In this document: positions 13,554-45,019 of the stretch, in pieces | How the letters are laid out: each line of letters begins with the position of its first letter | How positions within the stretch are numbered: the stretch's first letter is position 1 | IMG/VR virus record: IMGVR_UViG_3300031578_000039 | Coordinates: 1 to 58,771 of that record | Length of the DNA: 58,771 nt | DNA from: a virus | Strand: one strand, 5' to 3' | Notes under the pieces: generated by a model | Database searches by the model: none | What the model saw: only the letters and a program-made list of their open reading frames with translations | What the model was told of the DNA's origin: nothing | Position numbers and translations under genes: made by a program

Positions 13554-13680
13554 CGGCTGGTATTAGTTGTCGTTTCCGACAAAATTAACAGATAAATTAA
13601 CTTTAAAAACGGACATTATGAATACAGAATCAATTTCAAAAAAGCAAGTAGGCAATGCAATTAATACATTGCTACCTGCC
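13545..13680 (+). other. attC-like site with coding loop
   Basis: GCCCTATAACGG ... ATTGCTACCTGCC (13669-13680). GTATTAGTTG (13561-13570) pairs with CAATTAATAC. The loop contains the ATG at 13618. The crossover box has C in place of T (GCTACC). Confidence 0.6.
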
Positions 13681-13959
13681 GTTAATTTCCAATTCTTATA
13701 TCGCAAAAAAACAAACCAGGAATATGCACAGGAATTTTATTCCAAGAAAAAAACGATAAAAGAAGCGATGGACGATTTTTTAACCCGAAAACGAAACTTA
13801 TGTGATATTGACCCAGAAGTTGAAGTTACATATGAAGATGGCAGTCAGGAAGTTATTCAAGTTGATGCACGCCAAGATTGGGACTTAAGTTGGTATTTTG
13901 TTTATGAAAATCAAATGATTTGTGGCAATGGTTACTCATGTCAGTTTAATGGCGGTTAG
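13618..13959 (+). CDS. Leader-payload cassette protein
   Basis: The loop-encoded leader (ISKKQVGNAINTLLPA) resembles that of the gene at 5021. The payload (NFQFLYRKKTNQEYAQEF... EVEVTYEDGSQEVIQVDARQ) is beta-rich and ends GYSCQFNGG. Its start box CTACCTGCCGTTAA complements the end box TTAATGGCGGTTAG. Start taken inside the loop because nothing suitable lies after the box. Function unknown. Confidence 0.6.
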   Translation: MNTESISKKQVGNAINTLLPAVNFQFLYRKKTNQEYAQEFYSKKKTIKEAMDDFLTRKRNLCDIDPEVEVTYEDGSQEVIQVDARQDWDLSWYFVYENQMICGNGYSCQFNGG

Positions 13960-14085
13960 CGTTGAGTATAAGAAACGTAGCGTTTTGAAACACTGAACTA
14001 CAATAACTTACAAAAGTAAAATTGAAATAGAAAACTTAATATTAACCACTGACGGAGCTATGTTTTTTATACATTGTCACCGCCA
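13951..14085 (+). other. attC-like site, non-coding loop, mutated boxes
   Basis: GGCGGTTAGCG ... GTCACCGCCA (14076). GTATAAGAAACGTAGC (13966-13981) pairs with GCTATGTTTTTTATAC (14057-14072). The AAC/GTT core has changed to TAG/GTC, so the site may be inactive. Confidence 0.65.
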
Positions 14086-14103
14086 GTTAATTTTAAAAAC
14101 AAG

Positions 14104-14301
14104 ATGGCTAAACACATAGTAGAGATAGAAGGATTAAGGCAATACATGCTAGAAGATTATAGAACATATGCAAGTTCGTATGGTAAAGGTAGCCGCAAGG
14201 AACTTAGATGCAACTTGCGTGGCAGCTATGAGGTATGGCACAACAATGAACGAGTGCTTGAAACAATGCAAGCTATACATGCAGTTGATAAATATAACTA
14301 G
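14104..14301 (+). CDS. Small cassette protein
   Basis: 65 residues from MAKHIVEIEGLRQYMLEDYR; basic, aromatic (YASSYGKGSRKELRCNLRGS). Preceded by CACCGCCAGTTAATTTT and followed by TTAATTGGCGG, complementary ends shared with the cassettes at 8852 and 18682. Function unknown. Confidence 0.6.
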   Translation: MAKHIVEIEGLRQYMLEDYRTYASSYGKGSRKELRCNLRGSYEVWHNNERVLETMQAIHAVDKYN

Positions 14302-14310
14302 CTGCCTTAA

Positions 14311-14388
14311 TTGGCGGATGAAGTAAATTATTAACCAACAATGTTGATAGATGCACGATAAAATGGCATTTACATATTGTTATAAATC
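14311..14388 (+). other. Short attC-like site
   Basis: TTGGCGGATG ... GTTATAAATC (14379). GTAAAT (14323) pairs with ATTTAC (14368-14373). The left AAC is mutated. Confidence 0.5.
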
Positions 14389-14398
14389 TTATAAAATT

Positions 14399-14515
14399 AT
14401 GAAAACTTACAAAGTACTTTATTGGTGGCACAAAAGTGTAAGAAAACAGGAGTATGTTGATGCAATGAATTTAACAGTAGCACTTAGTTCATTTATAGCA
14501 AAATATGGTGAATAG
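14399..14515 (+). CDS. Very small cassette protein
   Basis: 38 residues, MKTYKVLYWWHKSVRKQEYV and a helical end. The frame is open upstream to an ATG at 14351 in the attC loop, so a 54-residue form is possible. Bounded by GTTATAAATC and TTTATAAC (14557). Confidence 0.5.
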   Translation: MKTYKVLYWWHKSVRKQEYVDAMNLTVALSSFIAKYGE

Positions 14516-14552
14516 GAAATTATAAGCATAGTAGAATGTGAATAATTTTATT

Positions 14553-14685
14553 TGTTTATAACGTTTTGGCTAAAGTGAGTTGCCATAAAACCCACTACAC
14601 TTTTAAATTACAATGACATGAGTAAAACACACGAACTTATCGGAAACCCACAAACAGGCAATTCACCTTTAGGTGATGTTATGGC
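14553..14685 (+). other. attC-like site with coding loop
   Basis: TTTATAACG ... GTTATGGC (14678). CTAAAGTGAGTTGCC (14571-14585) pairs with GGCAATTCACCTTTAG. The loop holds the ATG at 14618; GTT is read as Val. Confidence 0.7.
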
Positions 14686-14845
14686 TATGTTGCCTGACGG
14701 AATACTATGGAAGAAAGCAAAAGAATACGCACAACAATTTGCAATAAGAGATAAACCTGTTGAAAGTTCAAAACTTATGGCAGATGCACAAGACCATTAT
14801 TATAGAGGAATGATTGAAGCACGTAAAATGCTTATTGGCAATTAA
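14618..14845 (+). CDS. Leader-payload cassette protein
   Basis: 75 residues. Leader IGNPQTGNSPLGDV from the attC loop ends in GDV, as in the genes at 33580 and 44727. The payload follows (MAMLPDGILWKKAKEYAQQF... DHYYRGMIEARKMLIGN), helical. Ends at GGCAATTAAACACAACG. Function unknown. Confidence 0.6.
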   Translation: MSKTHELIGNPQTGNSPLGDVMAMLPDGILWKKAKEYAQQFAIRDKPVESSKLMADAQDHYYRGMIEARKMLIGN

Positions 14846-15189
14846 ACACAACGAAAATAATATGAACCTGTAAAAATAAAACGGCATGACAGAACAGAAA
14901 GCTAATAAAAAGATACTCATTTGCGGTGCAGGAGCGGGGGCGGGATTAGAAGCCGCTAGATTACTTGCAGAAATGGGAGAAACAAACGTTGAGATAGTAA
15001 CTGATATGGACGACATAAAAGAGCGTGGGATTACGATTAGAGAACCAATAACCATAGCAGCACCGCCAATGGTTGAACCATGGTATACCCCACCAGAAAC
15101 ACGTGCGGAGCGTAGGGCAAAGGCTCGAAAAAAGAAACGAAAGTAGTTTTATTTTTATGGTTTATATTTAGTGTTGTGTTTTAGTTGCC
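14836..15189 (+). other. attC-like site with an entire gene in its loop
   Basis: Left box GGCAATTAAACACAACG, right box GTTGTGTTTTAGTTGCC (15173). The arms (14850-14882 and 15146-15175) pair over about 30 bases with few mismatches. The complete gene 14886-15146 lies between the arms. Confidence 0.7.
14886..15146 (+). CDS. Small Rossmann-like protein carried in an attC loop
   Basis: 86 residues. KKILICGAGAGAGLEAARLL is a glycine-rich nucleotide-binding beta-alpha turn, followed by VEIVTDMDDIK as a second strand. The C-terminus is proline-rich then very basic (RAERRAKARKKKRK). It is far too short for a full dehydrogenase, so it may be a truncated or minimal nucleotide-binding protein. The gene is flanked on both sides by complementary attC arms. 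Confidence 0.6.
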   Translation: MTEQKANKKILICGAGAGAGLEAARLLAEMGETNVEIVTDMDDIKERGITIREPITIAAPPMVEPWYTPPETRAERRAKARKKKRK

Positions 15190-15243
15190 TGACTAATTCA
15201 CCTCATATTAAACCATAAACTTTTCAGGCAATTAAACACAACG
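15173..15243 (+). other. ORF-less mini-cassette
   Basis: About 70 bases between GTTGTGTTTTAGTTGCC and GGCAATTAAACACAAC, perfect-type cassette ends with no start codon or open frame between them. Confidence 0.6.
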
Positions 15244-15333
15244 TTCTTAATAAAAATCTGGCGGGGCAGTAGTAACCCGAAACTAAAAGCATAGCGTAAC
15301 ACCCCGCTTGTTTTTATTTATTGTTAGGGTGCG
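15226..15333 (+). other. attC-like site, non-coding loop
   Basis: GGCAATTAAACACAACG ... GTTAGGGTGC (15323). AATAAAAATCTGGCGGGG (15249-15266) pairs with CCCCGCTTGTTTTTATT (15302-15318). Confidence 0.8.
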
Positions 15334-15342
15334 TTAATTATT

Positions 15343-15465
15343 ATGGAAGAAAAATATAGACAATTACTAGAACAGTTTATTGAGCAAATGGAAGTGTTTA
15401 ATGAAACAGGCTTTGATGATGGCTTGCAAGAGCTAGAAGAAGAAGTTAAGGGTGTGTTGCTTTAA
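15343..15465 (+). CDS. Very small acidic cassette protein
   Basis: 40 residues, MEEKYRQLLEQFIEQMEVFN, one or two acidic helices. Bounded by GTTAGGGTGC (15323) and GCACCCTAAC (15467), perfect complements, which argues that it is a real unit. Function unknown. Confidence 0.6.
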   Translation: MEEKYRQLLEQFIEQMEVFNETGFDDGLQELEEEVKGVLL

Positions 15466-15466
15466 T

Positions 15467-15673
15467 GCACCCTAACGTTTAGGTATGGTTTGATTTTTAA
15501 CGGATTTGAAAAACGAAATATTATGAATTTAGAAAAAAGAGTAAAAGAACAATTATTAATTAGAGGCTTTTCAAGTGAGCTACAACTTAATAACAGGGGA
15601 TTAATTGGAGCAACTATTGATGAAACAACACTAGATTTAGTTAAAAATTTAACTATACCTGTTGTTAACGATA
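15467..15673 (+). other. attC-like site with long coding loop
   Basis: GCACCCTAACG ... GTTAACGATA (15664). GGTATGGTTTGATTTTTAAC (15482-15501) pairs with GTTAAAAATTTAACTATACC (15641-15660). The same arms recur at 32488-32700. The loop encodes about 45 residues of the next gene. Confidence 0.75.
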
Positions 15674-15828
15674 TGTTGCCTTTATCTGACTACGCTAAAG
15701 AAAAGCTAAAATATATTAACGGGCATTGGATGGTGCGTGAATTTCCTAAATTAGATAATATTGACCTACAATGGATAGGAGCTGTGCTTGATTTGTTAGA
15801 AGAACTAAAGTTAGGCAATTATCGTTAA
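15523..15828 (+). CDS. Leader-payload cassette protein
   Basis: 101 residues from MNLEKRVKEQLLIRGFSSEL. The helical leader ends in LVKNLTIPV, encoded by the attC arm and shared with the otherwise different gene at 32541. The payload is VNDMLPLSDYAKEKLKYING... ending LGNYR. GTTAACGATA at the junction is the exact complement of TATCGTTAAC at the gene end. Function unknown. Confidence 0.65.
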   Translation: MNLEKRVKEQLLIRGFSSELQLNNRGLIGATIDETTLDLVKNLTIPVVNDMLPLSDYAKEKLKYINGHWMVREFPKLDNIDLQWIGAVLDLLEELKLGNYR

Positions 15829-15855
15829 CATTGGTATAAACACACGTTTTAAAAC
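15820..15855 (+). repeat. Cassette-array boundary motif, copy 6
   Basis: TATCGTTAAC followed by ATTGGTATAAACACACG and TTTTAAAA; the HTH gene follows. Confidence 0.7.
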
Positions 15856-15857
15856 AA

Positions 15858-16118
15858 ATGCCTATGAATATGAAAGTTAAAGAATTAAATATTTCAGAAT
15901 CTGAAAGATTTAAAGAAAAATATCAAGAAATATTGCTTAATGTGAAAGAAAGATTTAGAGTAAAAGATGCTAAGTATATTCAAATATCAGAATCAAAAGC
16001 AAGTAGAATATTATCAGGAAATCAATTTGATATGCTAACACTTTGCGAAATTGCTTCTTTTGTTGGATACGATATTGATATTAAAATAACAGATAGAAAT
16101 AATAATAATTTTCACTAA
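15858..16118 (+). CDS. Helix-turn-helix DNA-binding protein
   Basis: 86 residues (start possibly at the second ATG, 15864). A helical N-terminus (NISESERFKEKYQEILLNVK) is followed by an HTH reading AKYIQISESKASRILSGNQF and DMLTLCEIASFVGYD, similar to the XRE/Cro class. A candidate regulator of the repeated palindromic operator (inference). Partial relatives of its N-terminus occur at 11480 and 34387, both behind boundary motifs. Confidence 0.65.
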   Translation: MPMNMKVKELNISESERFKEKYQEILLNVKERFRVKDAKYIQISESKASRILSGNQFDMLTLCEIASFVGYDIDIKITDRNNNNFH

Positions 16119-16128
16119 AATTATAATC

Positions 16129-16584
16129 ATGGATAAAAATCAATTAAGAGAATTAATCGAAGAAACATTAAAGGAAATTAATCTGTATTCAGAAGATGCG
16201 GTAAATCTTTTAATGGGTACTGCCGCACAAGAGAGCCATTTAGGAGTTTACATTCGTCAATTAGGATGTGGAGTAGCACAGGGAATATTTCAGATGGAAG
16301 CTGCAACATTGGAGGATATTAAACAAAACTATTTATCTTACAGACCTGAATTATCAGAGATCATTTTAAAAGCCTGTAATTCAATGAGTATTACACCAGA
16401 TTCTTTGCGATGGAATTTAAAACTTGCTACATGTATGGCAAGAGTTCATTATTTAAGAGTAGATGAGCCGCTTCCAGATGATTTACAGGGATATGCCGAA
16501 TATTGGAAAAAATACTACAATAGCTATCTAGGGAAAGGTTCTACTAGTGAGTTTATTCATAACTATAAAACATATGTATTATGA
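16129..16584 (+). CDS. Phage lysozyme/transglycosylase-like endolysin
   Basis: 151 residues. LLMGTAAQESHLGVYIRQLG, then GVAQGIFQME resembles the catalytic Glu region (QESH) and the GxxQ loop of lysozyme-fold muramidases found in phages. The rest is helical. Expected to cut peptidoglycan at lysis. Four-base ATGA overlap with the next gene supports a lysis cassette. No signal peptide, so a holin or pinholin would be needed. Confidence 0.7.
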   Translation: MDKNQLRELIEETLKEINLYSEDAVNLLMGTAAQESHLGVYIRQLGCGVAQGIFQMEAATLEDIKQNYLSYRPELSEIILKACNSMSITPDSLRWNLKLATCMARVHYLRVDEPLPDDLQGYAEYWKKYYNSYLGKGSTSEFIHNYKTYVL

Positions 16585-16850
16585 TGCAAGCAGTAATGTT
16601 ACTTGTAGAGTTAAATCAAGTCGGATTATCTTTGTTTTTTCTAATACTAGGAATAGCCTTAGACCAGATAGTATTTCCACGGAACAAAACAACAAATGTT
16701 TCAGGAGATCTAATAGAATCGCAGAAGAAGAAAGATAATTCTAAGGTAAAGACTAGGCGTGGCATATTTGGATGGCTTAAAAGAGATGAAAACAAGAAAA
16801 TAGCCAGAAAGCTAATGCGAATAAATAAAAGTTTGCCAAAACAAAAGTAA
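16581..16850 (+). CDS. Single-pass membrane protein of the lysis cluster
   Basis: 89 residues: one N-terminal transmembrane helix (about 3-31), then a basic cytoplasmic tail (GIFGWLKRDENKKIARKLMR). Starts on the stop of the endolysin. Position and topology suggest a holin, antiholin or spanin component. Confidence 0.6.
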   Translation: MMQAVMLLVELNQVGLSLFFLILGIALDQIVFPRNKTTNVSGDLIESQKKKDNSKVKTRRGIFGWLKRDENKKIARKLMRINKSLPKQK

Positions 16851-16894
16851 TTTTGTAATTTTATAATCTATTGTTATTCAAAAAATCATTAAAA

Positions 16895-17167
16895 ATGAAA
16901 AAATTTACCAAATTATTAGCAGTATTGATCTTTTTATTGGTAGCGTTTGCAGCTCCAATGATGGCTCAGGGCATTGCTGTTGAAACAGATTATAGTATGT
17001 GGTTGGAATTTATTCAACAGAATAGCATTTATTTAATTCCTATTCTTGTTTGGATTGTGAATAGATTTGTTCCAACAAAATGGAAAGATCCTATTGTAAT
17101 GTTATTGCAATGGTTAAATACTCGCATCCCTGATAAAAAAGCAGGAGGAGGTAAACACAATAAATAA
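16895..17167 (+). CDS. Putative holin-like membrane protein
   Basis: 90 residues from MKKFTKLLAVLIFLLVAFAA, a signal-like helix ending PMMAQG. A second hydrophobic helix follows (SIYLIPILVWIVNRFV) and a Gly/Lys tail. Start moved from the ATG at 16871 because the signal sequence begins at MKKF. The small two-helix topology next to an endolysin fits a holin; an exported protein is the alternative. A terminator follows. Confidence 0.6.
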   Translation: MKKFTKLLAVLIFLLVAFAAPMMAQGIAVETDYSMWLEFIQQNSIYLIPILVWIVNRFVPTKWKDPIVMLLQWLNTRIPDKKAGGGKHNK

Positions 17168-17247
17168 TTAGTAGTGTTTTCATGAATATTAGTTATATGG
17201 TTCTAATTTTCATGTAGTGTAGTTTCATTTATATTTAGTTTTAGTTT

Positions 17248-17278
17248 AGCCTCTCATTAATTTGGGAGGCTTTTTTAT
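17248..17278 (+). terminator. Rho-independent terminator after the lysis genes
   Basis: GCCTC(tcattaattt)GGGAGGC followed by six T. Confidence 0.85.
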
Positions 17279-17308
17279 AGCGTATTATTAAACGGCATAT
17301 CACATGTT

Positions 17309-17366
17309 ACATGTTGTATAACATGTCATTAAATAGCTGATAGTTAAAAAGTAATGCTTACGTTTG
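17309..17366 (+). promoter_or_regulatory. Operator and promoter, copy C
   Basis: ACATGTTGTATAACATGT (17309-17326), near-palindromic, then TACGTTTG (17359-17366) as -7 box. No good -33 TTTG is seen. Controls the gene at 17393. Confidence 0.6.
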
Positions 17367-17392
17367 TTGATAAACTAATAAATATTAAAAAC

Positions 17393-17722
17393 ATGGAGAA
17401 TTTTACAATCAAAAAATCTATTTACAAAGACGTAGAGACAAAATATTCTATTGATTCATACAATGAATTTTACGGAAAATTTTACAACTCAAGCAATTGC
17501 ATAGTATATATTGGTGGTTTTATTAAGGATAAAAAATCATTTTATATTCAAAAACTAGACAGATATTACAGTATTGAAATAAGAGATATTGTAAATGGAG
17601 GACGTGATAGTTTAAGATTAGAAATTGAACGATCTTATAGAGATTTTGAGTTTAAAAATAATATCACAAAATCAGAATTTTTAGATAAAATAAGTGATTT
17701 TAAATATATGTTAGATTTATAA
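17393..17722 (+). CDS. Hypothetical protein
   Basis: 109 residues from MENFTIKKSIYKDVETKYSI. An upstream ATG at 17354 lies before the -7 box and is therefore rejected. Beta-rich, Tyr/Asp-rich; no family recognised. It lies between two operator copies, so it could be part of the regulatory circuit (inference). Confidence 0.6.
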   Translation: MENFTIKKSIYKDVETKYSIDSYNEFYGKFYNSSNCIVYIGGFIKDKKSFYIQKLDRYYSIEIRDIVNGGRDSLRLEIERSYRDFEFKNNITKSEFLDKISDFKYMLDL

Positions 17723-17730
17723 ATGCGAAA

Positions 17731-17787
17731 ACATGTTGTACAACACATGGTTAAAATTTGCATAGTAATATTTAATTTATAGATTTG
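17731..17787 (+). promoter_or_regulatory. Operator plus strong Bacteroidota promoter, copy D
   Basis: ACATGTTGTACAACACATGG with a perfect TGTTGTACAACA core, TTTG at 17757-17760, 19 bases, TAGATTTG at 17780-17787. Drives the cassettes and recombination genes downstream. Confidence 0.85.
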
Positions 17788-17855
17788 CTTATGAAATTAA
17801 CGATTGAGCAAACACAACATTGATTAAACTACAAAAATAAATTAAACTTTGGATT

Positions 17856-18197
17856 ATGAAAATAGAAAATATTAAAACAATAACAGAATTTTATGAATTT
17901 GCAGACATTTGGCATCAGCGTTCGCATAGGCTGCGGGAGGTTTGGCAAAATATAATAAATACAGACGAACAAAGGGCAAAAGCATTTACACTATGGCTAA
18001 TAATGTATGATAGAGTAATGAAATTATTCGCAATTGCAACTAGGACAAACCAAGTTAAGCCACCTAAATTTGAAAACTGCAATTTGCATATTGTTGGCAA
18101 TAGCGAAGTGGCGTGTTGCGGAAATTGCCACTTGCCATTGGATAATATAGAAATGGTTAAAAAGGTGCAAATTGCTGACAAAAAGTATAACCCATAG
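17856..18197 (+). CDS. Leader-payload cassette protein with zinc site
   Basis: 113 residues. A long helical N-terminal part (FYEFADIWHQRSHRLREVWQ, about 1-78) precedes a cassette box GTTGGCAAT (18093), which is read as Val and complements ATTGCTAAC at the end (18205). The payload is short (GNSEVACCGNCHLPLDNIEM), with a CCxxC cluster. First gene behind promoter copy D. Function unknown. Confidence 0.6.
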   Translation: MKIENIKTITEFYEFADIWHQRSHRLREVWQNIINTDEQRAKAFTLWLIMYDRVMKLFAIATRTNQVKPPKFENCNLHIVGNSEVACCGNCHLPLDNIEMVKKVQIADKKYNP

Positions 18198-18204
18198 CAA
18201 CATG

Positions 18205-18302
18205 ATTGCTAACGTTGGTATATGGTTTGAAAGCCACGCACCGACATTAATTAATTGAACATAAACTTCCTTGGCTTTTTAACTACATACGTTGTTATAT
18301 GC
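18205..18302 (+). other. attC-like site, non-coding loop
   Basis: ATTGCTAACG ... GTTATATGC (18294). GTATATGGTTTGAAAGCCA (18218-18236) pairs with TGGCTTTTTAACTACATAC; the loop has the recurrent ATTAATTGAA segment. Confidence 0.8.
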
Positions 18303-18332
18303 TTTTAAAGTGCGAGGGCAAAAACTTGAAAG

Positions 18333-18554
18333 ATGAAAATATACACAATTGAACACGAGGAATTTAATTACGATGCCTACTTAGGGCACGTGATAGTTGC
18401 AAATGACAAAAAAGAGGTTAGGGAAATTGCGAAGAAAAGCTCTGCTGATGAAGGCAAAGAAGTTTGGGATAAAGCAAAAATAACAACCGAAGGAGAATAT
18501 ACAGGCAAAAAGAAAGAGCCGTTTACAATGCTAAGTGATTTTAGTGCGGGCTAA
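18333..18554 (+). CDS. Small cassette protein
   Basis: 73 residues: YTIEHEEFNYDAYLGHVIVA, NDKKEVREIAKKSSADEGKE, then a charged end. The fold looks like a small alpha/beta domain often found in phage and plasmid cassettes, unnamed. Bounded by GTTATATGC (18294) and GCATATAAC (18557). Confidence 0.65.
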   Translation: MKIYTIEHEEFNYDAYLGHVIVANDKKEVREIAKKSSADEGKEVWDKAKITTEGEYTGKKKEPFTMLSDFSAG

Positions 18555-18556
18555 TT

Positions 18557-18690
18557 GCATATAACGATGGTGGCAAGAAATCGTGACGGCTTACGAGCCA
18601 CAAAACTAAAATTACTGATAAATTATGAACGAAGATAAAACCTTGAATAACCCACAAACTCCGGCATGTTTTTTACCACGTGTTACCGCC
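18557..18690 (+). other. attC-like site with vestigial coding loop
   Basis: GCATATAACG ... GTTACCGCC (18682). GTGGCAAGAAATCGTGACGG (18569-18588) pairs with CCGGCATGTTTTTTACCAC. A 26-codon frame starting in the loop (18625) crosses the box as Val and then stops at 18705. Confidence 0.75.
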
Positions 18691-18705: not shown

Positions 18706-18723
18706 CATAAAAACTTAAATAAA

Positions 18724-19023: not shown

Positions 19024-19025
19024 TA

Positions 19026-19070
19026 TTGGCGGTAACACTGGTGTAAACACACCTTTTAATTAATTTATTA
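19026..19070 (+). repeat. Cassette-array boundary motif, copy 7
   Basis: TTGGCGGTAAC followed by ACTGGTGTAAACACACC and TTTTAATTAATTT. Confidence 0.75.
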
Positions 19071-19079
19071 ATAAAAACC

Positions 19080-19739: not shown

Positions 19740-19750
19740 AAATCCACACA

Positions 19751-31847: not shown

Positions 31848-32192
31848 ATGACAATAGAAGAATTAAGAAAAACTACATTCAGAAAAGGAGACAAAGCAAA
31901 ATACTATGACGTTATTGCTGAAATAATAGAAATTGAATATACTGAAGCATTATTGGGATTGCGACAAGGTAAGGATGAAATAGAATGGGTGAGGTGTGAA
32001 AATATAACATATATTCCGTGTGCGCTGGCAGAAACTTCGATCGTGCCACAAGCAAATGAATTATTACCGCTTGTTAGCAACCGAAGGAAACTGTTAATTG
32101 CCCATAACAAACATATACTTGATAGGCTAACAGAATATGAAGGCGATGAAATTTGCGATAAGATGGTAGATGATTTTATAGGCAATTTATAG
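31848..32192 (+). CDS. Leader-payload cassette protein
   Basis: 114 residues from MTIEELRKTTFRKGDKAKYY. The first 75 residues form a small beta-rich domain (KYYDVIAEIIEIEY, EIEWVRCENITYIPC). The box GTTAGCAACC at 32073 is read as Val and complements GTTGCTAAC at the gene end. The payload is a helical end (NRRKLLIAHNKHILDRLTEY). Another start box, GTTAGCTTTTCG, lies at 31803 with the conserved leader GTGCGAGGGC. Confidence 0.6.
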   Translation: MTIEELRKTTFRKGDKAKYYDVIAEIIEIEYTEALLGLRQGKDEIEWVRCENITYIPCALAETSIVPQANELLPLVSNRRKLLIAHNKHILDRLTEYEGDEICDKMVDDFIGNL

Positions 32193-32316
32193 TTGCTAAC
32201 GGTACGCAAGTATGAAACGTGCCAACACAAAGATTGATTGAAAAAATGAATTTTAAAATTAACATAAATATTAACTTAGATGCACTACAGGCATGTTTTA
32301 TACTTGCTGTTAGGCA
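32192..32316 (+). other. attC-like site with vestigial coding loop
   Basis: GTTGCTAACGG ... GTTAGGCA (32309). GCAAGTATGAAACGTGCC (32206-32223) pairs with GGCATGTTTTATACTTGC (32290-32307) almost perfectly. A 25-codon frame (32246-32323) crosses the box in the valine phase. Confidence 0.85.
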
Positions 32317-32487: not shown

Positions 32488-32700
32488 GTGCCTAACGGGG
32501 TTGGTATGGTTTGATTTTTAACGGATAAATAAATACAAATATGAAAGACGAAATTAATAATATTATTGACCACCTCGAAGAAACACTTAAAGGCTTTAAA
32601 CAAGCGTATAAAGATGAGGGGTATGATTTGGCAAATGAAACGCATCACGTTACAGAAGCATTAAAATTAGTTAAAAATTTAACTATACCTGTTGCTGTAA
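32488..32700 (+). other. attC-like site with long coding loop
   Basis: TGCCTAACGG ... GTTGCTGTAAATCCC (32691). Arms GGTATGGTTTGATTTTTAAC and TTAAAAATTTAACTATACC are the same as those at 15467-15673, but the loop sequence is different. Confidence 0.75.
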
Positions 32701-32789
32701 ATCCCGTTATTTGCCCTAACTGTGAAGAAGAATGTGAACCGATACCATTAGGGCAAATGTGCAATAAGTGTTACTACGATAAAATGTAG
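32541..32789 (+). CDS. Leader-payload cassette protein, zinc-ribbon payload
   Basis: 82 residues. A helical leader (INNIIDHLEETLKGFKQAYK) ends in LVKNLTIPV, the arm-encoded segment also present at 15523. The payload is a zinc ribbon (CPNCEEECEPIPLGQMCNKC). Payload ends complement each other (GTTGCTGTAAAT / GTTTACAAC). Shows the same arm joined to unrelated leader and payload. Confidence 0.65.
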   Translation: MKDEINNIIDHLEETLKGFKQAYKDEGYDLANETHHVTEALKLVKNLTIPVAVNPVICPNCEEECEPIPLGQMCNKCYYDKM

Positions 32790-32933
32790 GGCAAATTATG
32801 GTTTACAACGCTACAGATAAGATACGTTGCGATTTAATACATAAAATTTCGATAACAAATAAACCTTTATAAAATGAAAACACTTTTAAATTACTTACTA
32901 AATAAGCAATGGATTTTATCTATTGTTATGTGC
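32790..32933 (+). other. attC-like site with coding loop
   Basis: GTTTACAACG ... GTTATGTGC (32925). AGATAAGAT and GTTGCGATTT pair with AAATAAGCAAT and ATTTTATCT. An ATG at 32874 in the loop is in frame with the next gene. Confidence 0.6.
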
Positions 32934-33134
32934 TTTTTAAGCGAGGGCAAAAAAGAGCAAATATACATAGCAAAATTCAGGGCTGAATTAGCATTTTGTG
33001 GGCATGATGTTTCTGATATGACAGATGAAGAAATTAAAGAAGGAATTACTAAAATGGGTGAAATGGTGTCAAAATGCGGAATGACAACAGATGAAGTTGC
33101 AGAAGCATTTAAAGCGTTGGCAAATTGCACATAA
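32928..33134 (+). CDS. Small cassette protein, alternative leader start at 32874
   Basis: 68 residues when started at the ATG within the box GTTATGTGC; 86 when started at 32874 in the attC loop (MKTLLNYLLNKQWILSIV leader). Body: helical, acidic, HDVSDMTDEEIKEGITKMGE. Ends at GCACATAAC, the complement of its start box. Function unknown. Confidence 0.6.
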   Translation: MCFLSEGKKEQIYIAKFRAELAFCGHDVSDMTDEEIKEGITKMGEMVSKCGMTTDEVAEAFKALANCT

Positions 33135-33223
33135 CGTACTGCGGTATGAACTGACCGCATTGTAGACAGTTCAAAATTATACACAAGGTTGATTGCGGTT
33201 TGTTTATACCGTTTGTTAGCCAC
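33127..33223 (+). other. attC-like site, non-coding loop
   Basis: GCACATAACG ... GTTAGCCAC (33215). GCGGTATGAACTGACCGC (33141-33158) pairs with GCGGTTTGTTTATACCGT; the loop contains GGTTGATT. Confidence 0.8.
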
Positions 33224-33236
33224 TTTTATTTAAGCG

Positions 33237-33500
33237 ATGGCAAAATATAGAAAAAAACCAGTAGTAATTGAAGCATGGAAATGGGATGAAACCAAGGAGA
33301 TGTTTGATAAAATAGGCTGTAAAAGTATGAGTAGTAGTGGACATACTGAGCGACCAAACGAAATGACATCTTTAAGAATTAAAACACTTGAAGGAACAAT
33401 GAGAGTTGATAAAGGTGACTTTATTATAAAGGGAGTGAAGGGTGAGTATTACCCATGTAAGCCTGATATATTTGAAATGACTTATGAGTGCGTTGGCTAA
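33237..33500 (+). CDS. Common phage protein, GDFIIKGVKGEYYPCKPDIF family
   Basis: 87 residues. KKPVVIEAWKW and GDFIIKGVKGEYYPCKPDIF are strongly conserved in a widespread phage family of unknown function. It starts right after the conserved cassette leader TTTTATTTAAGCGATGG. Bounded by GTTAGCCAC (33215) and GTGGCTAAC (33503), so it is a cassette. Confidence 0.8.
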   Translation: MAKYRKKPVVIEAWKWDETKEMFDKIGCKSMSSSGHTERPNEMTSLRIKTLEGTMRVDKGDFIIKGVKGEYYPCKPDIFEMTYECVG

Positions 33501-33640
33501 TTGTGGCTAACGGATGGCAGCTATGCCCAGTTGGGCAATAAATAGCACTTAATTATCAAACTATAAATAACTTAATAAAATGGCAAAAAGTAAAAATAAC
33601 CAACAAACCGCCCAATTGGGTATAGGTGATGTTATGCACC
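33501..33640 (+). other. attC-like site with coding loop
   Basis: GTGGCTAACGG ... GTTATGCACC (33631). CAGCTATGCCCAGTTGGGC (33518-33536) pairs with GCCCAATTGGGTATAGGTG. The loop holds the ATG at 33580; GTT is read as Val. Confidence 0.85.
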
Positions 33641-33789
33641 GTTCTATTGATTTTGCTAAATATGCGAATAGATATTATGAACTTTGCTATGAAACAGAAC
33701 CTTGCTGGTTTAACAAAAACAACCACGAAAAATATACATCAAATCAAGTTTACAACGCTTTCGTTAAGTACCTAAAGAATGGTGCATAA
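33580..33789 (+). CDS. Leader-payload cassette protein
   Basis: 69 residues. Leader KNNQQTAQLGIGDV comes from the attC loop, and payload MHRSIDFAKYANRYYELCYE... HEKYTSNQVYNAFVKYLKNG from the cassette. Start box GTTATGCACC complements GGTGCATAAC at the end. Payload could also start at the ATG in the box. Function unknown. Confidence 0.65.
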   Translation: MAKSKNNQQTAQLGIGDVMHRSIDFAKYANRYYELCYETEPCWFNKNNHEKYTSNQVYNAFVKYLKNGA

Positions 33790-33917
33790 CGTTTTGGCTA
33801 TGTTGCGTAGCCTTTTAGATTAGAATTACAAACTTAAAAATTAAAAATATGATGCCAAAAAGCAGTAAGCGACCAGAAAAAGACGAGGCTATGCAATATG
33901 AGCCTGTGTTATGCACC
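33781..33917 (+). other. attC-like site with coding loop, minor phase
   Basis: GGTGCATAACG ... GTTATGCACC (33908). GGCTATGTTGCGTAGCC (33797-33813) pairs with GGCTATGCAATATGAGCC. Crossover is read GTG TTA, not GTT. Confidence 0.8.
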
Positions 33918-34061
33918 GTTATTATTACACAAAATGACTTTGATATGTTAAAGATTATTAGAGGCTACTTTGGTAAAAACGATGTAACAGGATTAGAACA
34001 CATGGCTTATGCAGTACTTGACAGGGTGATAAAACAACATGAAAACCCTAATGGTGCATAA
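33849..34061 (+). CDS. Leader-payload cassette protein
   Basis: 70 residues. Leader KSSKRPEKDEAMQYEPV from the loop, payload LCTVIITQNDFDMLKIIRGY and GLEHMAYAVLDRVIKQHENP. The ATG pair at 33849/33852 makes the exact start uncertain. Cassette ends GTTATGCACC / GGTGCATAAC are identical to those of the preceding cassette. Function unknown. Confidence 0.65.
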   Translation: MMPKSSKRPEKDEAMQYEPVLCTVIITQNDFDMLKIIRGYFGKNDVTGLEHMAYAVLDRVIKQHENPNGA

Positions 34062-34190
34062 CGCTATGCAGCTAAACGCTGTTGGCGATTTGGAACACGA
34101 AATTATCAACTTAAAATAAACTTAATATGGAACACGAAAATTTGAATACAGAAGAAACCGCCAATAGCGATTTAGGTGCTGTTAGGCGTA
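34053..34190 (+). other. attC-like site with coding loop
   Basis: GGTGCATAACG ... GTTAGGCGTA (34181). GCAGCTAAACGCTGTTGGCG (34068-34087) pairs with CGCCAATAGCGATTTAGGTGC region. Loop contains the ATG at 34127; GTT read as Val. Confidence 0.85.
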
Positions 34191-34345
34191 GTGCTTTGAC
34201 TTGGTGGAACTCAATGACATTTGAGGAACAATTTTATAAAACGATAGCTTGGTTGAAAAGCGAAAACAGGAATACAACAGAAAGGCATCCGCACCATTTA
34301 ACAGGTAGGGAGATTCAGCAGATTTATGAACTGCATTACGCCTAA
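34127..34345 (+). CDS. Leader-payload cassette protein
   Basis: 72 residues. Leader NLNTEETANSDLGAV from the loop, payload RRSALTWWNSMTFEEQFYKT, AWLKSENRNTTERHPHHLTG, EIQQIYELHYA. The payload resembles small phage proteins of the WW-M-FEE-F type, unnamed. Start box GTTAGGCGTA complements TACGCCTAAC at the end. Last cassette of this array. Confidence 0.65.
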   Translation: MEHENLNTEETANSDLGAVRRSALTWWNSMTFEEQFYKTIAWLKSENRNTTERHPHHLTGREIQQIYELHYA

Positions 34346-34372
34346 CGATGGTATAAACACACCTTTCGATAT
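34338..34372 (+). repeat. Cassette-array boundary motif, copy 8
   Basis: TACGCCTAACG followed by ATGGTATAAACACACC and TTTCGATATAAACACC. Confidence 0.75.
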
Positions 34373-34386
34373 AAACACCTGTAAAC

Positions 34387-34566
34387 ATGCAACTTATAAA
34401 AAACAATCTTTCAGAAAGTGAAATATTTAAAGCAAAATATAAAGAAGTATTGCAAAATTTGGAAGATAGATTTAGGGTGAAAGATGGGAACAATGGTGCT
34501 ACTCAACTTATGAAGACCCAACATATGAATGGATTGCATGGCGTAACTGTATTTCTTAATACATAA
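34387..34566 (+). pseudogene. HTH-gene N-terminus with divergent or frameshifted end
   Basis: NLSESEIFKAKYKEVLQNLE and RFRVKD align with the N-terminus of the gene at 15858, but the HTH is missing. After RFRVKD the annotated frame gives a low-complexity tail. The +1 frame gives WEQWCYSTYEDPTYEWIAW then stop, which looks more protein-like, suggesting a frameshift. Confidence 0.5.
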
Positions 34567-40574: not shown

Positions 40575-40585
40575 AACAGTTTTAT

Positions 40586-40834
40586 ATGGAAATTATAATT
40601 TCAGGGTCTGACAATAATATCAAGAAGTTTCTTAAATTAAATTCATTGTTCATGAAAAGAAATGGGTTGATATTATCTAAAGATGCCAAGGCTAAAGATG
40701 CCAAGGCTAAAGATGTAATCGCTTTAATTGAATCAGTTGAAACTTTAGAAGATTTAAAGCAATTTGAATCAGACAATAGAACAACTGTGAAAACAGTTTA
40801 TGACAAAAAATTGCAAGAGTTAAGTCAAGATTAA
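40586..40834 (+). CDS. Small head-region protein with tandem repeat
   Basis: 82 residues. A tandem KDAKAKDAKAKD (DNA repeat about 40680-40714) separates a beta-type start from a helical end VIALIESVETLEDLKQFESD, as in small head accessory proteins. Between capsid and connector genes. Confidence 0.6.
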   Translation: MEIIISGSDNNIKKFLKLNSLFMKRNGLILSKDAKAKDAKAKDVIALIESVETLEDLKQFESDNRTTVKTVYDKKLQELSQD

Positions 40835-40849
40835 TCAATAAATAAAGCA

Positions 40850-41440
40850 ATGGCAAATCTAATTAATGAGGATTATTTTATCAGAGACATAAGTTTACCT
40901 ACAAGTAAAGAGGCTGATGTATCTAAGATAAAATCTGAAATTGAGAAACATCAAGAAGGTGTCTTAATACAAGTTCTTGGTTATGATTTGTATTCTAAAT
41001 TTATTGCAGATCCTGCCTCAGAGCAAAGATTTCTTGACATAATAGACGGTAAAGAGTTTGAATTTAATTTTTGTGGAAAAACTATAAAACGTAAGTATGT
41101 AGGCTTGGTAAATTCCCAAAAGGAAAGTATTATAGCCTATTATGCTTACTTTTTTATAGTTAGAAACAATGTGACTTTCACTTCAAACACTGGCGAGGTT
41201 GTTGCCGATAATGAAAATTCAAGACCCGCATCTTCTAATCAGAAACTTACGAGGGCTTGGAATAATTTTGTTGAGTTATCAGGAGATATAATGTGTTGTT
41301 GCTTCGATAAATTAGACACTTCATCTTACATTCACGTCAACGACCATCCGTCTTTATTTAATTTTCTGTTAGCAAATAAAGACGTATATCCTGAATGGGA
41401 ATTTACACCATCTGAAAAGATTAATATTTTCGGAATATGA
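40850..41440 (+). CDS. Head-tail connector protein (DUF6712-like)
   Basis: 196 residues: VSKIKSEIEKHQEGVLIQVL, YDLYSKFIADP, ESIIAYYAYFFIVRNNVTFT. Helical adaptor-like protein known from Bacteroidota phages at this position. Overlaps the next gene by four bases. Confidence 0.65.
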   Translation: MANLINEDYFIRDISLPTSKEADVSKIKSEIEKHQEGVLIQVLGYDLYSKFIADPASEQRFLDIIDGKEFEFNFCGKTIKRKYVGLVNSQKESIIAYYAYFFIVRNNVTFTSNTGEVVADNENSRPASSNQKLTRAWNNFVELSGDIMCCCFDKLDTSSYIHVNDHPSLFNFLLANKDVYPEWEFTPSEKINIFGI

Positions 41441-42132
41441 GCGATGCAAAATTAAGGATACCAACATTTGAGGCAGACTTTGAATCTATTGTAGATAAAA
41501 TTCGCAAGACAGGAATCATAACAGATGCCGTATTGTCTGGTGAAAACACTGTATTAACAACAGTTAACGATCTAAAGGAAAATAAAACATTGTTGATAAA
41601 CGGAATAAGCTGTAAGGTAATCTCTGCATCTTCAACAGAAATTACAGTTAATAAAGATGTTGTTGGTGCTACTGAGTGGAAAGCAGAATTTCCTTTTTTT
41701 ATGGACGGTCATATTTCTGAAATATCTAAAAGATTGAAAGGGAAAGATGAATCAAACGATTCTGTTTTAAAATGGCAGAAATATCCATTGATTATACTTT
41801 TACAGGATATTGATTACAAAAAAAACAGGATTAACAACACGGAAGCAACTATTGATTTTCTGATAGTAAATTCAACAGAACAGGACTATACAACGGTTCA
41901 GAGAAGGGAAAATAATTTTATACCAATACTTGATCCATTGTATAACGATCTTATTACGGCAATGAGAGACAATATGAAGTTTCGTATTTCAAACGATAGC
42001 TTTACAGCCTCTAGGAAGTATTTTTGGGGAGCGATACCGCAAAATAAAAATCCTTTCAACGATCGCCTTGATGCGATTGAGATAACAGGTTTAAAATTAG
42101 ATTTAATTACAAATTATAACTTAAATTGTTAA
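41437..42132 (+). CDS. Neck/tail-completion protein
   Basis: 231 residues. The N-terminal part has a small beta-barrel-like stretch (KTLLINGISCKVISASSTEI). The rest (WQKYPLIILLQDIDYKKNRI, QRRENNFIPILDPLYNDLIT) matches proteins between connector and tail tube in Bacteroidota phages. Assigned mainly by position. Confidence 0.6.
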   Translation: MSDAKLRIPTFEADFESIVDKIRKTGIITDAVLSGENTVLTTVNDLKENKTLLINGISCKVISASSTEITVNKDVVGATEWKAEFPFFMDGHISEISKRLKGKDESNDSVLKWQKYPLIILLQDIDYKKNRINNTEATIDFLIVNSTEQDYTTVQRRENNFIPILDPLYNDLITAMRDNMKFRISNDSFTASRKYFWGAIPQNKNPFNDRLDAIEITGLKLDLITNYNLNC

Positions 42133-42136
42133 AAAT

Positions 42137-43036
42137 ATGACATGCTCACAAATACCAATGCCAGCAGGGCTTCAAAAGACTTGCGGTGCTAATTTTGAGA
42201 AAGTAAAAAATATATTCATTGTAGATAATGTTACATTTGACAGTGTAGTAAAAGTACAAAGTCAAGCAGAATGGATTAAAGCAATAAGAGAAGATTTAAC
42301 AATCTGGGGGGGTAGAGTTTTGAACAGTTACGAGACAACTACCGATGACGCCAACACTGTTACATTCGATTCTACAAGAAAAAGAGATGTAACACGCCCT
42401 ATTCCATCAGGATTATTCTATTTTGATACAAATTTCTGTGACACAAAAGAGTTACTAAAAACTCTTAAAAATGTATCAAGAACGGTAGTATTTGAGCTTA
42501 ACAATGGAAGCTTGCATATGACAATGGGAATCGATGGAAAAATTAAAGGTTTTGCAGGAACTCTTAATGCCATTACAAAAGGAATTGCACAGCCTTCAGG
42601 CGTTGGCAATAATGCTCCTGTTAAATTTTACGGAGATAGTTATAATGAATGGGAAAATGGAGTATTAATTCCAATGGATTTCAGTTTGACAGACCTTATT
42701 GAAACGTATTCGCCTCTTGGGTTAACATTGCACTCTGTGGGGAAATATGATACAACCGCAGGTGAAATAGCAGTACATGTTGACGTGAGAGGACAAGGAG
42801 GTTTAGAGGGGCTTTCTGTAACAGATTTTGAGATAGTAAGATCAAGCAATATTGATACTCCTGACATAACAGGAATTGAGATAGTTGGAAACGGAGATTA
42901 TATACTTACTATTCAAAAGGGTGTTATTCCTGTTAATTTGGCGGTAGGTGATTTCGTTGTTGTTAGGGTAAAGGTTGCTGTTGGCTCTATTGTTAGCAAA
43001 GTTTCTAATGAAATTTATATATCTGTAAACGAATAA
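42137..43036 (+). CDS. Major tail (tube) protein candidate
   Basis: 299 residues. MTCSQIPMPAGLQKTCGANF resembles tail-tube subunits of Bacteroidota phages. The central part (FELNNGSLHMTMGIDGKIKG) is beta-rich. Residues after about 205 form an Ig-like C-terminal domain (GLSVTDFEIVRSSN..., VVVRVKVAVGSIVSKVSNEI), common as a tail-tube decoration. Confidence 0.65.
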   Translation: MTCSQIPMPAGLQKTCGANFEKVKNIFIVDNVTFDSVVKVQSQAEWIKAIREDLTIWGGRVLNSYETTTDDANTVTFDSTRKRDVTRPIPSGLFYFDTNFCDTKELLKTLKNVSRTVVFELNNGSLHMTMGIDGKIKGFAGTLNAITKGIAQPSGVGNNAPVKFYGDSYNEWENGVLIPMDFSLTDLIETYSPLGLTLHSVGKYDTTAGEIAVHVDVRGQGGLEGLSVTDFEIVRSSNIDTPDITGIEIVGNGDYILTIQKGVIPVNLAVGDFVVVRVKVAVGSIVSKVSNEIYISVNE

Positions 43037-43040
43037 TATT

Positions 43041-43235
43041 ATGGGAAAAATACAAATTAATCCTAGCCTAAAGAGGCTATCCAAAGATGAGTTTAGAAAA
43101 TGGTTTGAGGGCAGAAAAAAAGCCTCACCTAAACGCTACGGAGAAGCAAACTTGGAAGATCATTACAATGAATTACATCCGACAGTTAAAAAGGAAGTAA
43201 AAGAAGAAGTAAAAGAGAATAAAGCTGTTAAGTAG
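43041..43235 (+). CDS. Small basic tail-region protein
   Basis: 64 residues: LKRLSKDEFRKWFEGRKKAS then an EVKEEVKEN tail. Short helical protein after the tube gene; possibly a tail assembly factor. Terminator follows. Confidence 0.55.
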   Translation: MGKIQINPSLKRLSKDEFRKWFEGRKKASPKRYGEANLEDHYNELHPTVKKEVKEEVKENKAVK

Positions 43236-43251
43236 TAATTTAGAAGTACTT

Positions 43252-43287
43252 AAAAAAAGCCTTTCTGTATAAGAGAGGCTTTTTTAA
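43252..43287. terminator. Bidirectional terminator
   Basis: AAAAAAAGCCTTTC(tgtataa)GAGAGGCTTTTTT, with A and T tracts on both sides. Separates the plus-strand head genes from the minus-strand cassette cluster. Confidence 0.88.
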
Positions 43288-43341
43288 TTGTTTCCATATT
43301 TTCGTTTTAAAATAGTCATTAGCAACATGTTACGCTTTAAG

Positions 43342-43605
43342 TTAGTCTTCATTTGCCAATGCACTTAGTAAAGCATCAGCATATTCAACAGCTCTGGCAG
43401 AAAACGCTATTAGGTCACTTCCTTTTTTGTCATTTTCTTGTGGTCTTAATATATTAGGGTTGGCTTTGGCTATCATAGCCGCCATTGCTTGCCCTGCGTA
43501 ATATTCTCTAATTGTTAATCCTTTTTGCCAATAACAATCGTCAAGACCATATGCCACACTAGCAAAAGCTGGTTCATTTCCTATTTCTTTAATTCTATCT
43601 TCCAT
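43342..43605 (-). CDS. Common phage protein, GLTIREYYAGQAMAAM type
   Basis: 87 residues: EIGNEPAFASVAYG, QKGLTIREYYAGQAMAAMIA, then DLIAFSARAVEYADALLSAL. This is a widespread small phage family of unknown function. The 3' end of the minus-strand group. Confidence 0.75.
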   Translation of the reverse strand: MEDRIKEIGNEPAFASVAYGLDDCYWQKGLTIREYYAGQAMAAMIAKANPNILRPQENDKKGSDLIAFSARAVEYADALLSALANED

Positions 43606-43729
43606 AGTTTTTAGATTTATTATTTAATTAAAGATTTGTTTTTTGTTTCTGATTTCATGATTTATTTTAGTTTTGTACCGTCAACGCTAAAAAACGAAAC
43701 GGTAACAATATAATTAAGTTACTAGTCAC

Positions 43730-43918
43730 TCATGTTACACTTCTAAGCATTCGCAAACCATATAGGCAGATAGTTATTCCTGCTATTAAAAGCACATATT
43801 CATACCATATACGCTCCCATGTTACATTAATCATATCAGCTATTATAATTCCTGCTACAAATGCACCTAGTAAAGTCCAGAAGAATCCTAGCACAAATAT
43901 TCTGTTTTCTTTAGTCAT
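43730..43918 (-). CDS. Small two-helix membrane protein
   Basis: 62 residues with two transmembrane helices (about 7-28 and 38-56). Begins ten bases after an A-rich leader. A box GTTAGCATTAG lies upstream on the minus strand, but no matching end box was found. Function unknown. Confidence 0.55.
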   Translation of the reverse strand: MTKENRIFVLGFFWTLLGAFVAGIIIADMINVTWERIWYEYVLLIAGITICLYGLRMLRSVT

Positions 43919-43989
43919 TGTAATTTATTTTTTAGTTATTAAATCCGTACTAATGCTAACAAGAAAATATACGCTACTTCCCATAAACA

Positions 43990-44026
43990 AACAGCAAGGT
44001 GTGTTTACACAATCGTTATAAACAAG
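43990..44026 (-). repeat. Cassette-array boundary motif, copy 9, inverted
   Basis: On the minus strand TTGTTTATAACG is followed by ATTGTGTAAACACACC and TTG, the same motif that closes the plus-strand arrays. Confidence 0.7.
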
Positions 44027-44366
44027 GTGACTCTGGTAGTTCTGCCCAATATTTAACAGGGTTTTGTTTCCTAATATCTCCCATCGCTATATCCCACCAA
44101 CGCTTTGTTATATCAGAATATTCTAGTTTATGTATCGTATTGTTTTCTAAACAAGCCAAGTAGCTGCCCAGCGCACCCTCTGGCAATCTTTCGGAGCAAG
44201 CCACCCAGTTAATAACACTAAATAAACCCAAAGTTTTAACCTTACTTTGATGGTAATATTCAGCGTATTCAGCCATTAATATAGGTACAAATCCAGCAAT
44301 TCTACCTTTACCGTGTTCAGAGTTATTGAACCATTCTTCTGCTTTATCAAATTCTGTAAAATCCAT
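44016..44366 (-). CDS. Leader-payload cassette protein, DUF551-like payload
   Basis: 116 residues. The leader (EFDKAEEWFNNSEHGKGRIA ... SKVKTLGLFSV, about 51 residues) is encoded in the attC loop. The payload INWVACSERLPEGALGSYLA ... WAELPESP has the W-x-S-RLPE opening and LP-x-P end of DUF551, a small phage domain often found fused to different N-termini. GTT at the junction is read as Val. The role of the domain is unknown. Confidence 0.75.
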   Translation of the reverse strand: MDFTEFDKAEEWFNNSEHGKGRIAGFVPILMAEYAEYYHQSKVKTLGLFSVINWVACSERLPEGALGSYLACLENNTIHKLEYSDITKRWWDIAMGDIRKQNPVKYWAELPESPCL

Positions 44367-44419
44367 TTCGTGCTATTTAATTGGTTAAAAATCAGTGTTT
44401 ATTATTTACGTTATAAACC
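44205..44419 (-). other. attC-like site with long coding loop (minus strand)
   Basis: Minus strand: GGTTTATAACG ... GTTATTAACTGG. TAAATAATAAACACTG and ATTTTTAACC pair with GGTTAAAAC and GGTTTATTTAG. The loop encodes 51 residues of the gene above. Confidence 0.75.
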
Positions 44420-44421
44420 AT

Positions 44422-44661
44422 TTAGTGATAAATAAATCTACTGTGCGTTGAATCTATCACTATTTCTTGTATTGCCCGCCCACGTGTTCTTTTTCGGTTG
44501 TTATGTTGCGGAGTTGGTCTGTAATGGTTTACAGGTTGCTCAATAACTGGTTCAGATGCGGCTTGCGCTCCAGTTTGTTTTTTACTTCTAAATAAACGGT
44601 TTATAACATGCAACATAAACCATGCCTTTAGTCTGGCAAATAACATTGTAGTTGTTTTCAT
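44422..44661 (-). CDS. Leader-payload cassette protein
   Basis: 79 residues. A hydrophobic leader (MLFARLKAWFMLHV) from the attC loop joins a basic, Gln/Pro-rich payload (INRLFRSKKQTGAQAASEPV, NNRKRTRGRAIQEIVIDST). Start box GTTATAAACC complements GGTTTATAAC at its end. Function unknown. Confidence 0.6.
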   Translation of the reverse strand: MKTTTMLFARLKAWFMLHVINRLFRSKKQTGAQAASEPVIEQPVNHYRPTPQHNNRKRTRGRAIQEIVIDSTHSRFIYH

Positions 44662-44735
44662 AATTTAGTTTATTTTAAGTTGATAATTTAATTCAATTTA
44701 TACGGCACAGTTCATGTTACCGACCGTTATAGGGC
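44598..44735 (-). other. attC-like site with coding loop (minus strand)
   Basis: Minus strand: GCCCTATAACG ... GTTATAAACC. GTAACATGAACTGTGCC pairs with GGCATGGTTTATGTTGC. Confidence 0.8.
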
Positions 44736-44951
44736 ATTTACCCATATCTCATCCAATATTTCATACTCAGGGTCGTAAAGTGCTAATCTTTGCTTTCCTT
44801 CTTCATCGTGGTAGTTTTCTAAGCCTAGCTGTGTATCTTCAATGTCGTAACCTTCGTGCTTTTCTGTTTGTTCAATTAAAAAACGCCCTATAACATCACC
44901 TATATGTAATGCCTTGCCGTCTTTATCAAAAATCTCAATACTTGTTTCCAT
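44727..44951 (-). CDS. Leader-payload cassette protein
   Basis: 74 residues. Leader IEIFDKDGKALHIGDV from the loop, payload IGRFLIEQTEKHEGYDIEDT ... YEILDEIWVNAL, acidic. The leader reads like the start of a small beta-barrel (GDxxH-x-GD). Start box GTTATAGGGC complements GCCCTATAAC at the end. Function unknown. Confidence 0.65.
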   Translation of the reverse strand: METSIEIFDKDGKALHIGDVIGRFLIEQTEKHEGYDIEDTQLGLENYHDEEGKQRLALYDPEYEILDEIWVNAL

Positions 44952-45019
44952 TATTTCTATTATTAAAAGTTGGTGCAGTTTGGTAAAAAGGCACTACACA
45001 TAGCCTTACCGTTAGGCAC
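44885..45019 (-). other. attC-like site with coding loop (minus strand)
   Basis: Minus strand: GTGCCTAACG ... GTTATAGGGC. GGCTATGTGTAGTGCC pairs with GGCATTACATATAGG. GTT read as Val. Confidence 0.85.

Follow-up and report, generated by a model that had tools for sequence, protein, structure and literature searches.

The window, meaning the whole 58,771-bp stretch of IMG/VR record IMGVR_UViG_3300031578_000039, contains arrays of small gene cassettes which, as in integrons (IntI, attI, attC), are delimited by GTTRRRY and RYYYAAC boxes with arm complementarity, and whose attC-like hairpins appear to code for protein. Open reading frames (ORFs) begin upstream of the GTT box and cross it; the part before the box is here called the leader and the part after it the payload, and an ORF that reads GTT as Val is said to be in phase 0. 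A first-pass annotation of the sequence had claimed a start codon upstream of the box in at least 15 genes, and on re-translation of all 15 ORFs 15/15 agreed. Its placement of the upstream segments in the attC loop and arm holds insofar as they lie in or near attC-like hairpins, but some sites lack clear arms, and the "vestigial leaders" that it listed at 18682 and 32309 found no support. A relative, contig G397 (IMGVR_UViG_3300031539_000464; loci L002 and L015), is 97% identical to the window over 34.6-44.0 kb. The hairpins and box-crossing ORFs are as follows.

1929..2237, plus strand: ORF crossing box 2004; no clear upstream arm
5021..5308, plus strand: ORF crossing box 5071, phase 2
13618..13959, plus strand: phase-2 ORF; the box that it crosses, at 13671, is of the GCT type
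14618..14845, plus strand: box-crossing ORF (attC 14560-14680)
15474..15666, plus strand: coding attC hairpin, VKNLTIP type (X arm, ATG 15523, leader, Y arm, GTT box 15664)
15523..15828, plus strand: box-crossing ORF; leader 76% identical to a leader in contig G401, payload unrelated
17856..18197, plus strand: box-crossing ORF (GTT 18093) whose leader has 79 residues; weak hairpin
31848..32192, plus strand: ORF with VSNRRKLL payload after GTT 32073; conserved in G397, frame intact, although the box differs there by 12 nt
32494..32693, plus strand: coding attC hairpin, VKNLTIP type
32541..32789, plus strand: box-crossing ORF; payload with CxxC pairs (zinc-ribbon-like)
32874..33134, plus strand: box-crossing ORF (attC 32807-32927)
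33509..33633, plus strand: coding attC hairpin
33580..33789, plus strand: box-crossing ORF; stop TAA inside the end box
33788..33910, plus strand: coding attC hairpin
33849..34061, plus strand: box-crossing ORF, phase 2; box sequence the same as at 33631
34060..34183, plus strand: coding attC hairpin
34127..34345, plus strand: box-crossing ORF; payload similar to a protein of Tenacibaculum phage PTm1 whose start is close to the box position
44016..44366, minus strand: box-crossing ORF; DUF551-like payload that begins 3 residues past the box (E 7e-4, slightly below the curated cut-off)
44422..44661, minus strand: box-crossing ORF
44727..44951, minus strand: box-crossing ORF (attC 45013-44892); retained in G397

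The ends of the cassettes are real: when the 7 bases after GTT were compared with the reverse complement of the cassette's own end box in 22 cassettes, 130 of 154 positions matched, against a mean of 63.7 and a maximum of 90 in 10,000 permuted pairings. Simple inverted repeats proved too noisy for calling cassettes; box closure and an arm-based caller were used instead, and the latter called hairpin arms in the window and made no calls in two reversed-sequence controls. The window thus contains paired boxes with imperfectly paired arms, as expected of attC sites. The stop codon falls exactly at the end box in 9 of the 15 window ORFs (TAA/CG, or TAG/CG at 13959). Two window sites have an X arm (GGTATGGTTTGATTTTTAACGGAT) that recurs exactly in six further viral contigs; the Y arm, which translates as VKNLTIP, is present in still more. 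In those of these sites for which the X arm could be placed, the ATG is 43-52 nt past the A box, and the sites are read in phase 0 through GTT into payloads that, like the leaders, are highly diverse. An orientation test for extrahelical bases found few and mixed indels in the arms, and recurrent G/A differences between arms instead; a count that depends on the caller is biased by it. Two such core positions recur in the window and its relatives, with G in the A-box arm and A in the complement of the GTT-box arm; these differences are G.T wobbles on the gene strand and C.A mismatches on the other strand.

The near-constant phase that had been claimed was borne out, with GTT read as Val in 12 of the 15 ORFs (starts 1929, 14618, 15523, 17856, 31848, 32541, 32874, 33580 and 34127, and 44366, 44661 and 44951 on the minus strand) and another phase used only at boxes 5071, 13671 and 33908, where ORFs 5021, 13618 and 33849 are in phase 2. 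Box-crossing ORFs of at least 55 aa at called hairpins are in phase 0 in 18/18 cases, a tally that excludes one false call, at 56888 within a structural gene. Tested across sites, the excess of phase 0 is strong against three phases (P = 0.0003), but P is only 0.018 when the phase that often meets TAG or TAA in the box is left out; because of this, and because the arms share ancestry, phase alone is weak evidence. The possibility that the leaders are incidental open frame, with translation beginning past the box, was weighed on initiation context. Several boxes contain ATG (GTTATG...), and the Tenacibaculum phage homologue of the 34127 payload begins near the box position without a leader, both of which would favour such starts. 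Against them, the upstream context of the leader ATGs is distinguished from that of all ATGs with an area under the curve (AUC) of 0.919 (long phage genes, 0.868) while that of the alternative starts past the box has an AUC of 0.380, below chance; the leader ATG has the better context in 25/26 comparisons, and six ORFs have no alternative start within 30 codons. The ORF across box 32073 also stays in frame in G397 despite the 12-nt difference at the box, and the leader shared by window ORF 15523 and a G401 ORF has a ratio of nonsynonymous to synonymous substitution rates of 0.36-0.40, an estimate that rests on 46 codons. Incidental leaders are accordingly very unlikely, and from these sequence comparisons the attC sites are very probably coding, with leaders that are translated and under constraint.

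A 23-mer, AACNNTKGTRTAAACACACCTTT, is present in nine copies in the window, all at the right ends of arrays and shortly before a phage ATG, and in zero copies in shuffled sequence. These attI-like elements are located as follows.

2247..2269, plus strand: attI-like element 1 (array end), AACNNTKGTRTAAACACACCTTT match
6730..6752, plus strand: attI-like element 2
9130..9152, plus strand: attI-like element 3
10823..10845, plus strand: attI-like element 4
11443..11465, plus strand: attI-like element 5
15827..15849, plus strand: attI-like element 6
19034..19056, plus strand: attI-like element 7
34344..34366, plus strand: attI-like element 8; same element in G397, different adjoining cassette
43995..44017, minus strand: attI-like element 9; same element in G397, different adjoining cassette

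Contig G401 has two copies of a variant of the element, at array ends, and contig G408 and Polaribacter phage Leef_1 have one similar element each, directly before the start of the integrase gene. An attI-like element adjoins an integrase gene in the relatives G408, Leef_1 and Freya, and the window has the element without the integrase. At three sites (11442-11585, 15826-15969 and 34343-34486) the attI-like sequence is followed by copies of one gene family (MKVKELNISESERFKEKYQEILLN...), and the attI-plus-gene unit looks as if it had been duplicated.

The first-pass annotation proposed recombination between G and TT, which would join different leaders to different payloads in frame, and drew the moving unit as a payload with the following attC. 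Recent junctions locate the crossover in the other box. Cassettes differ between the window and G397 in both arrays despite the 97% identical flanks, and homology ends exactly in AACG at window positions 32201, 34343, 44018 and 44725; the attI-distal cassettes are kept and those near the TATAAACACACC element are swapped. The Polaribacter phages Freya_1 to Freya_10, which have a common host strain and are otherwise identical over the compared region, differ by insertions of 842, 902, 472, 3198 and 307 bp immediately to the left of the integrase gene, adjoining the attI-like ACCCCTATAACAACAATAAG and the integrase start, and every junction is at AAC. Phage Danklef_4 is without one 781-bp methylase cassette, both junctions being AAC boxes, and a block common to Danklef_1 and Freya_10 begins and ends at AACG. 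Among these 12 junctions (4 window/G397, 5 Freya, 1 Danklef and 2 Danklef/Freya), 12/12 are in the end box (RYYYAA/C, adjoining the stop codon) and none is at G/TT. Therefore, leader and payload move together in one cassette, and the observed unit is a hairpin with a whole gene and not a payload with the following attC; it is gained and lost at a core box as integron cassettes are. The integrase of Danklef_1-5 (L112-L114) is annotated at some 44 residues only; as Danklef_4 has nevertheless lost the methylase cassette, an enzyme acting in trans may serve the array.

An integrase crossover at G/TT as the primary reaction, with a new pairing of leader and payload at each cassette move, would account for the phase lock, as well as for the occurrence of one leader with different payloads and of one payload with different leaders (below). 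Besides the 12 junctions, what speaks against it is given by the adjacent boxes 33631 and 33908, which are identical in sequence yet crossed in different phases, and by the non-coding hairpins at 8488-8576 and 18274-18362, which are homologous across GTT into the 5' untranslated region, and we regard it as quite unlikely. Mosaic phages could also create junctions of this kind by homologous recombination at the short conserved boxes, since phages recombine readily and the boxes are repeated; with whole cassettes cleanly gained or lost beside the integrase in otherwise identical isolates, and only a few bases common at the junctions, this route appears highly improbable.

The same leader was nevertheless found with different payloads, and the same payload with different leaders, with the break at the GTT in both cases; these are the checks that the first-pass annotation had suggested, and each came out positive at least once. 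The leaders of window ORF 15523 and of a G401 ORF are 76% identical over 46 aa, whereas their payloads and preceding cassettes are unrelated; the DNA similarity runs exactly from AACG to GTT, then ends. An identical 15-mer starting at GTT, GTTAGCAACCGAAGG, opens a VSNRR(E/K)LL payload in the window (32073), contig G407 and Freya_10, behind three unrelated leaders, and the window and G407 payloads align over 36 residues. The payloads being short, that of Freya_10 taken alone may be a chance similarity, but a chance origin of the box-anchored 15-mer in three phages is unlikely (about 1e-3 by a rough estimate). Judged by sequence, in-frame chimeras of leader and payload exist, on longer time scales, and to that extent the idea of a domain-shuffling integron stands; joining by crossover at G/TT is unsupported, and domain shuffling is probably not the primary reaction. 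The DUF551 payload in G408 was dropped as a second case of a shared payload when Pfam gave no support, and a leader similarity between Freya2_67 and L082 was not used as a clean breakpoint, as it continues past the box.

Relatives that carry a recombinase gene have it in a constant position, directly to the right of the array in 3/3 integrase-bearing contigs. Their recombinases are 268-280 aa in length, with XerA-, XerC- or XerD-type models as best matches, and the integrase of G408 is 68% identical to that of Leef_1; the Xer-like recombinases of the related phages span 268-287 aa. They score 86-131 bits against the integron integrase model TIGR02249, for which the cut-off is 265, in a split alignment. 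Because these Xer-like enzymes are far below the integron-integrase cut-off, the system is integron-like in its working but does not classify as IntI-type.

The window itself, with at least two attC sites and no intI nearby, has the composition of a cluster of attC sites lacking integron-integrases (CALIN). It might therefore be an ordinary CALIN, its cassettes taken from a host chromosomal integron by the host IntI and passively carried, all the more because CALINs have been described in phages and phage attC sites can be recombined by IntI1 (PMC9892861). In relatives, however, the array adjoins an integrase gene and an attI-like element of the same kind, the cassettes run opposite to the usual gene orientation, one phage has nine attI-like copies, and the element was not found beside the 30 intI loci examined, although the sampled genomes may not be of the host group. 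Passive carriage is thus unlikely. Payload searches in 395 genomes gave no match, the VKNLTIP-type arm pattern gave only 3-mismatch matches in the same genomes, a leader-alignment scan with A1 found only a known relative, and a search for the attI-like element across 85k genomes yielded only chance or partial matches. The carriers of the system are a group of viruses of marine-type Bacteroidota.

Comparison with known systems shows a mixture of features. An attI-like element, attI-proximal gain and loss, and a tyrosine recombinase next to attI are shared with integrons, from which the system differs in a recombinase below the IntI cut-off and without the IntI insertion, in many attI-like copies in one phage, and in reversed cassettes: the protein-coding hairpin overlaps the 5' end of the gene, rather than lying at its 3' end, and the crossover box follows the stop codon. 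Qi et al. 2023 (PMC9892861) described CALINs in phages including Polaribacter phage P12002L, noted divergent attC directions in it and recombined one of its attC sites with IntI1; no passage on a flavophage integrase, on attC sites that code for protein or on turnover of cassettes was found in that paper. The arm-based caller identified sites of the window's class in the P12002L array (L115), where the gp37 region (31313-31123, minus strand) contains a coding attC (MNKEQLPLEI...LNLHV/VGSSFKL...). The paper on the isolation of the Freya, Danklef and Leef phages (Bartlau et al. 2021, PMC8776804) lists genomes of 44.0-48.9 kb and, for Freya, one integrase; the word "integron" is absent from it. 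Isolated examples of a reading frame that spans an integron core have been described, namely fused cassettes and ORF-11 of attI1 (PMC8876359), and the frames described here likewise cross the recombination core; ORF-11 differs in that its frame usually runs into a stop codon within the core and it acts through translational coupling. XerCD-dif (pdif) modules resemble the arrays in their Xer-like recombinase and small mobile gene modules, but the boundaries here are AAC and GTT boxes with long hairpins and not 28-bp dif sites. No description of flavophage integrons, reversed cassettes or coding attC sites was found in the literature searched, which covered few subscription journals and preprints.

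Taken together, these arrays are likely to be phage-encoded, integron-like cassette arrays of flavobacterial phages with reversed cassettes and coding attC sites. Several points weigh against this reading. No PF00589 recombinase gene was found in the 58,771-bp window, most related contigs are without an integrase, and a tyrosine recombinase occurs in only 3/20 related viral contigs; the element is called attI-like on its position and conservation; box 2004 is without a convincing upstream arm, and closure is weak at 14678, 18093, 32691 and 44216; and the constraint on the leader was estimated from few codons. The crossover position, the turnover on the attI side, the integrase beside the array in relatives, the coding capacity and the initiation context are read directly from the sequences, whereas the role of the Xer-like protein as the enzyme and the action of attC in single-stranded, folded form are what we infer, the sole biochemistry being that of IntI1 on one attC of P12002L (PMC9892861).

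In the proposed mechanism, a small Xer-like tyrosine recombinase would recombine the short attI-like element with hairpin attC sites; some members encode it beside the array, and that of the window would be supplied in trans or have been lost. The cassette is backwards relative to its gene, the hairpin at the 5' end and then the gene, with crossover in the box RYYYAA/C adjoining the stop codon. Since hairpin and gene overlap at the gene's 5' end, the loop and second arm contain the start codon and the N-terminal residues, and GTT would be no more than the inner box, read as Val. Over longer periods, modules of hairpin and leader have been joined in frame to new payloads at GTT, generating chimeric proteins, for which candidate routes are cassette genesis, homologous exchange in the arms and occasional use of the other box, the last being possible because the arms are nearly symmetrical and without clear extrahelical bases. 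A stronger variant is a true protein-shuffling integron, in which the same recombinase could use both boxes of the near-symmetrical hairpin, with phase and arm codons under selection: the end box would serve whole-gene exchange and the GTT box an occasional in-frame rejoining of leader and payload. We consider this variant possible but doubtful.

Other cassettes of the window have their start codon past the box.

5356..6730, plus strand: cassette with its own start past the box; long ORF 5454-6635 (393 aa)
8508..8732, plus strand: start codon past the box; homology to the 18294 cassette continues across GTT
18294..18563, plus strand: start codon past the box
33215..33509, plus strand: start codon past the box
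45013..45435, minus strand: start codon past the box; attI-distal, conserved in G397

The 393-aa ORF may be RtcB-like. Cassettes 8508, 18294, 33215 and 45435 (minus strand) have a common 5' segment like CTTTTAAAGTGCGAGGGCAAAA between the box and the ATG. A 91-nt repeat with the near-palindrome ACATGTTGTACAACACATG is present at 8294-8384, 10096-10186 and 17709-17799, and is possibly an operator or promoter region.

The phages of this group would thus possess their own integron-like exchange, with a Xer-like enzyme and multiple landing sites, the turnover of which is visible in cultured isolates, and cassette capture by phages thereby becomes directly testable. The recombination site itself would be protein-coding and mark the joint of N-terminal and C-terminal halves, which may provide a route to new chimeric proteins that is absent from standard integrons.

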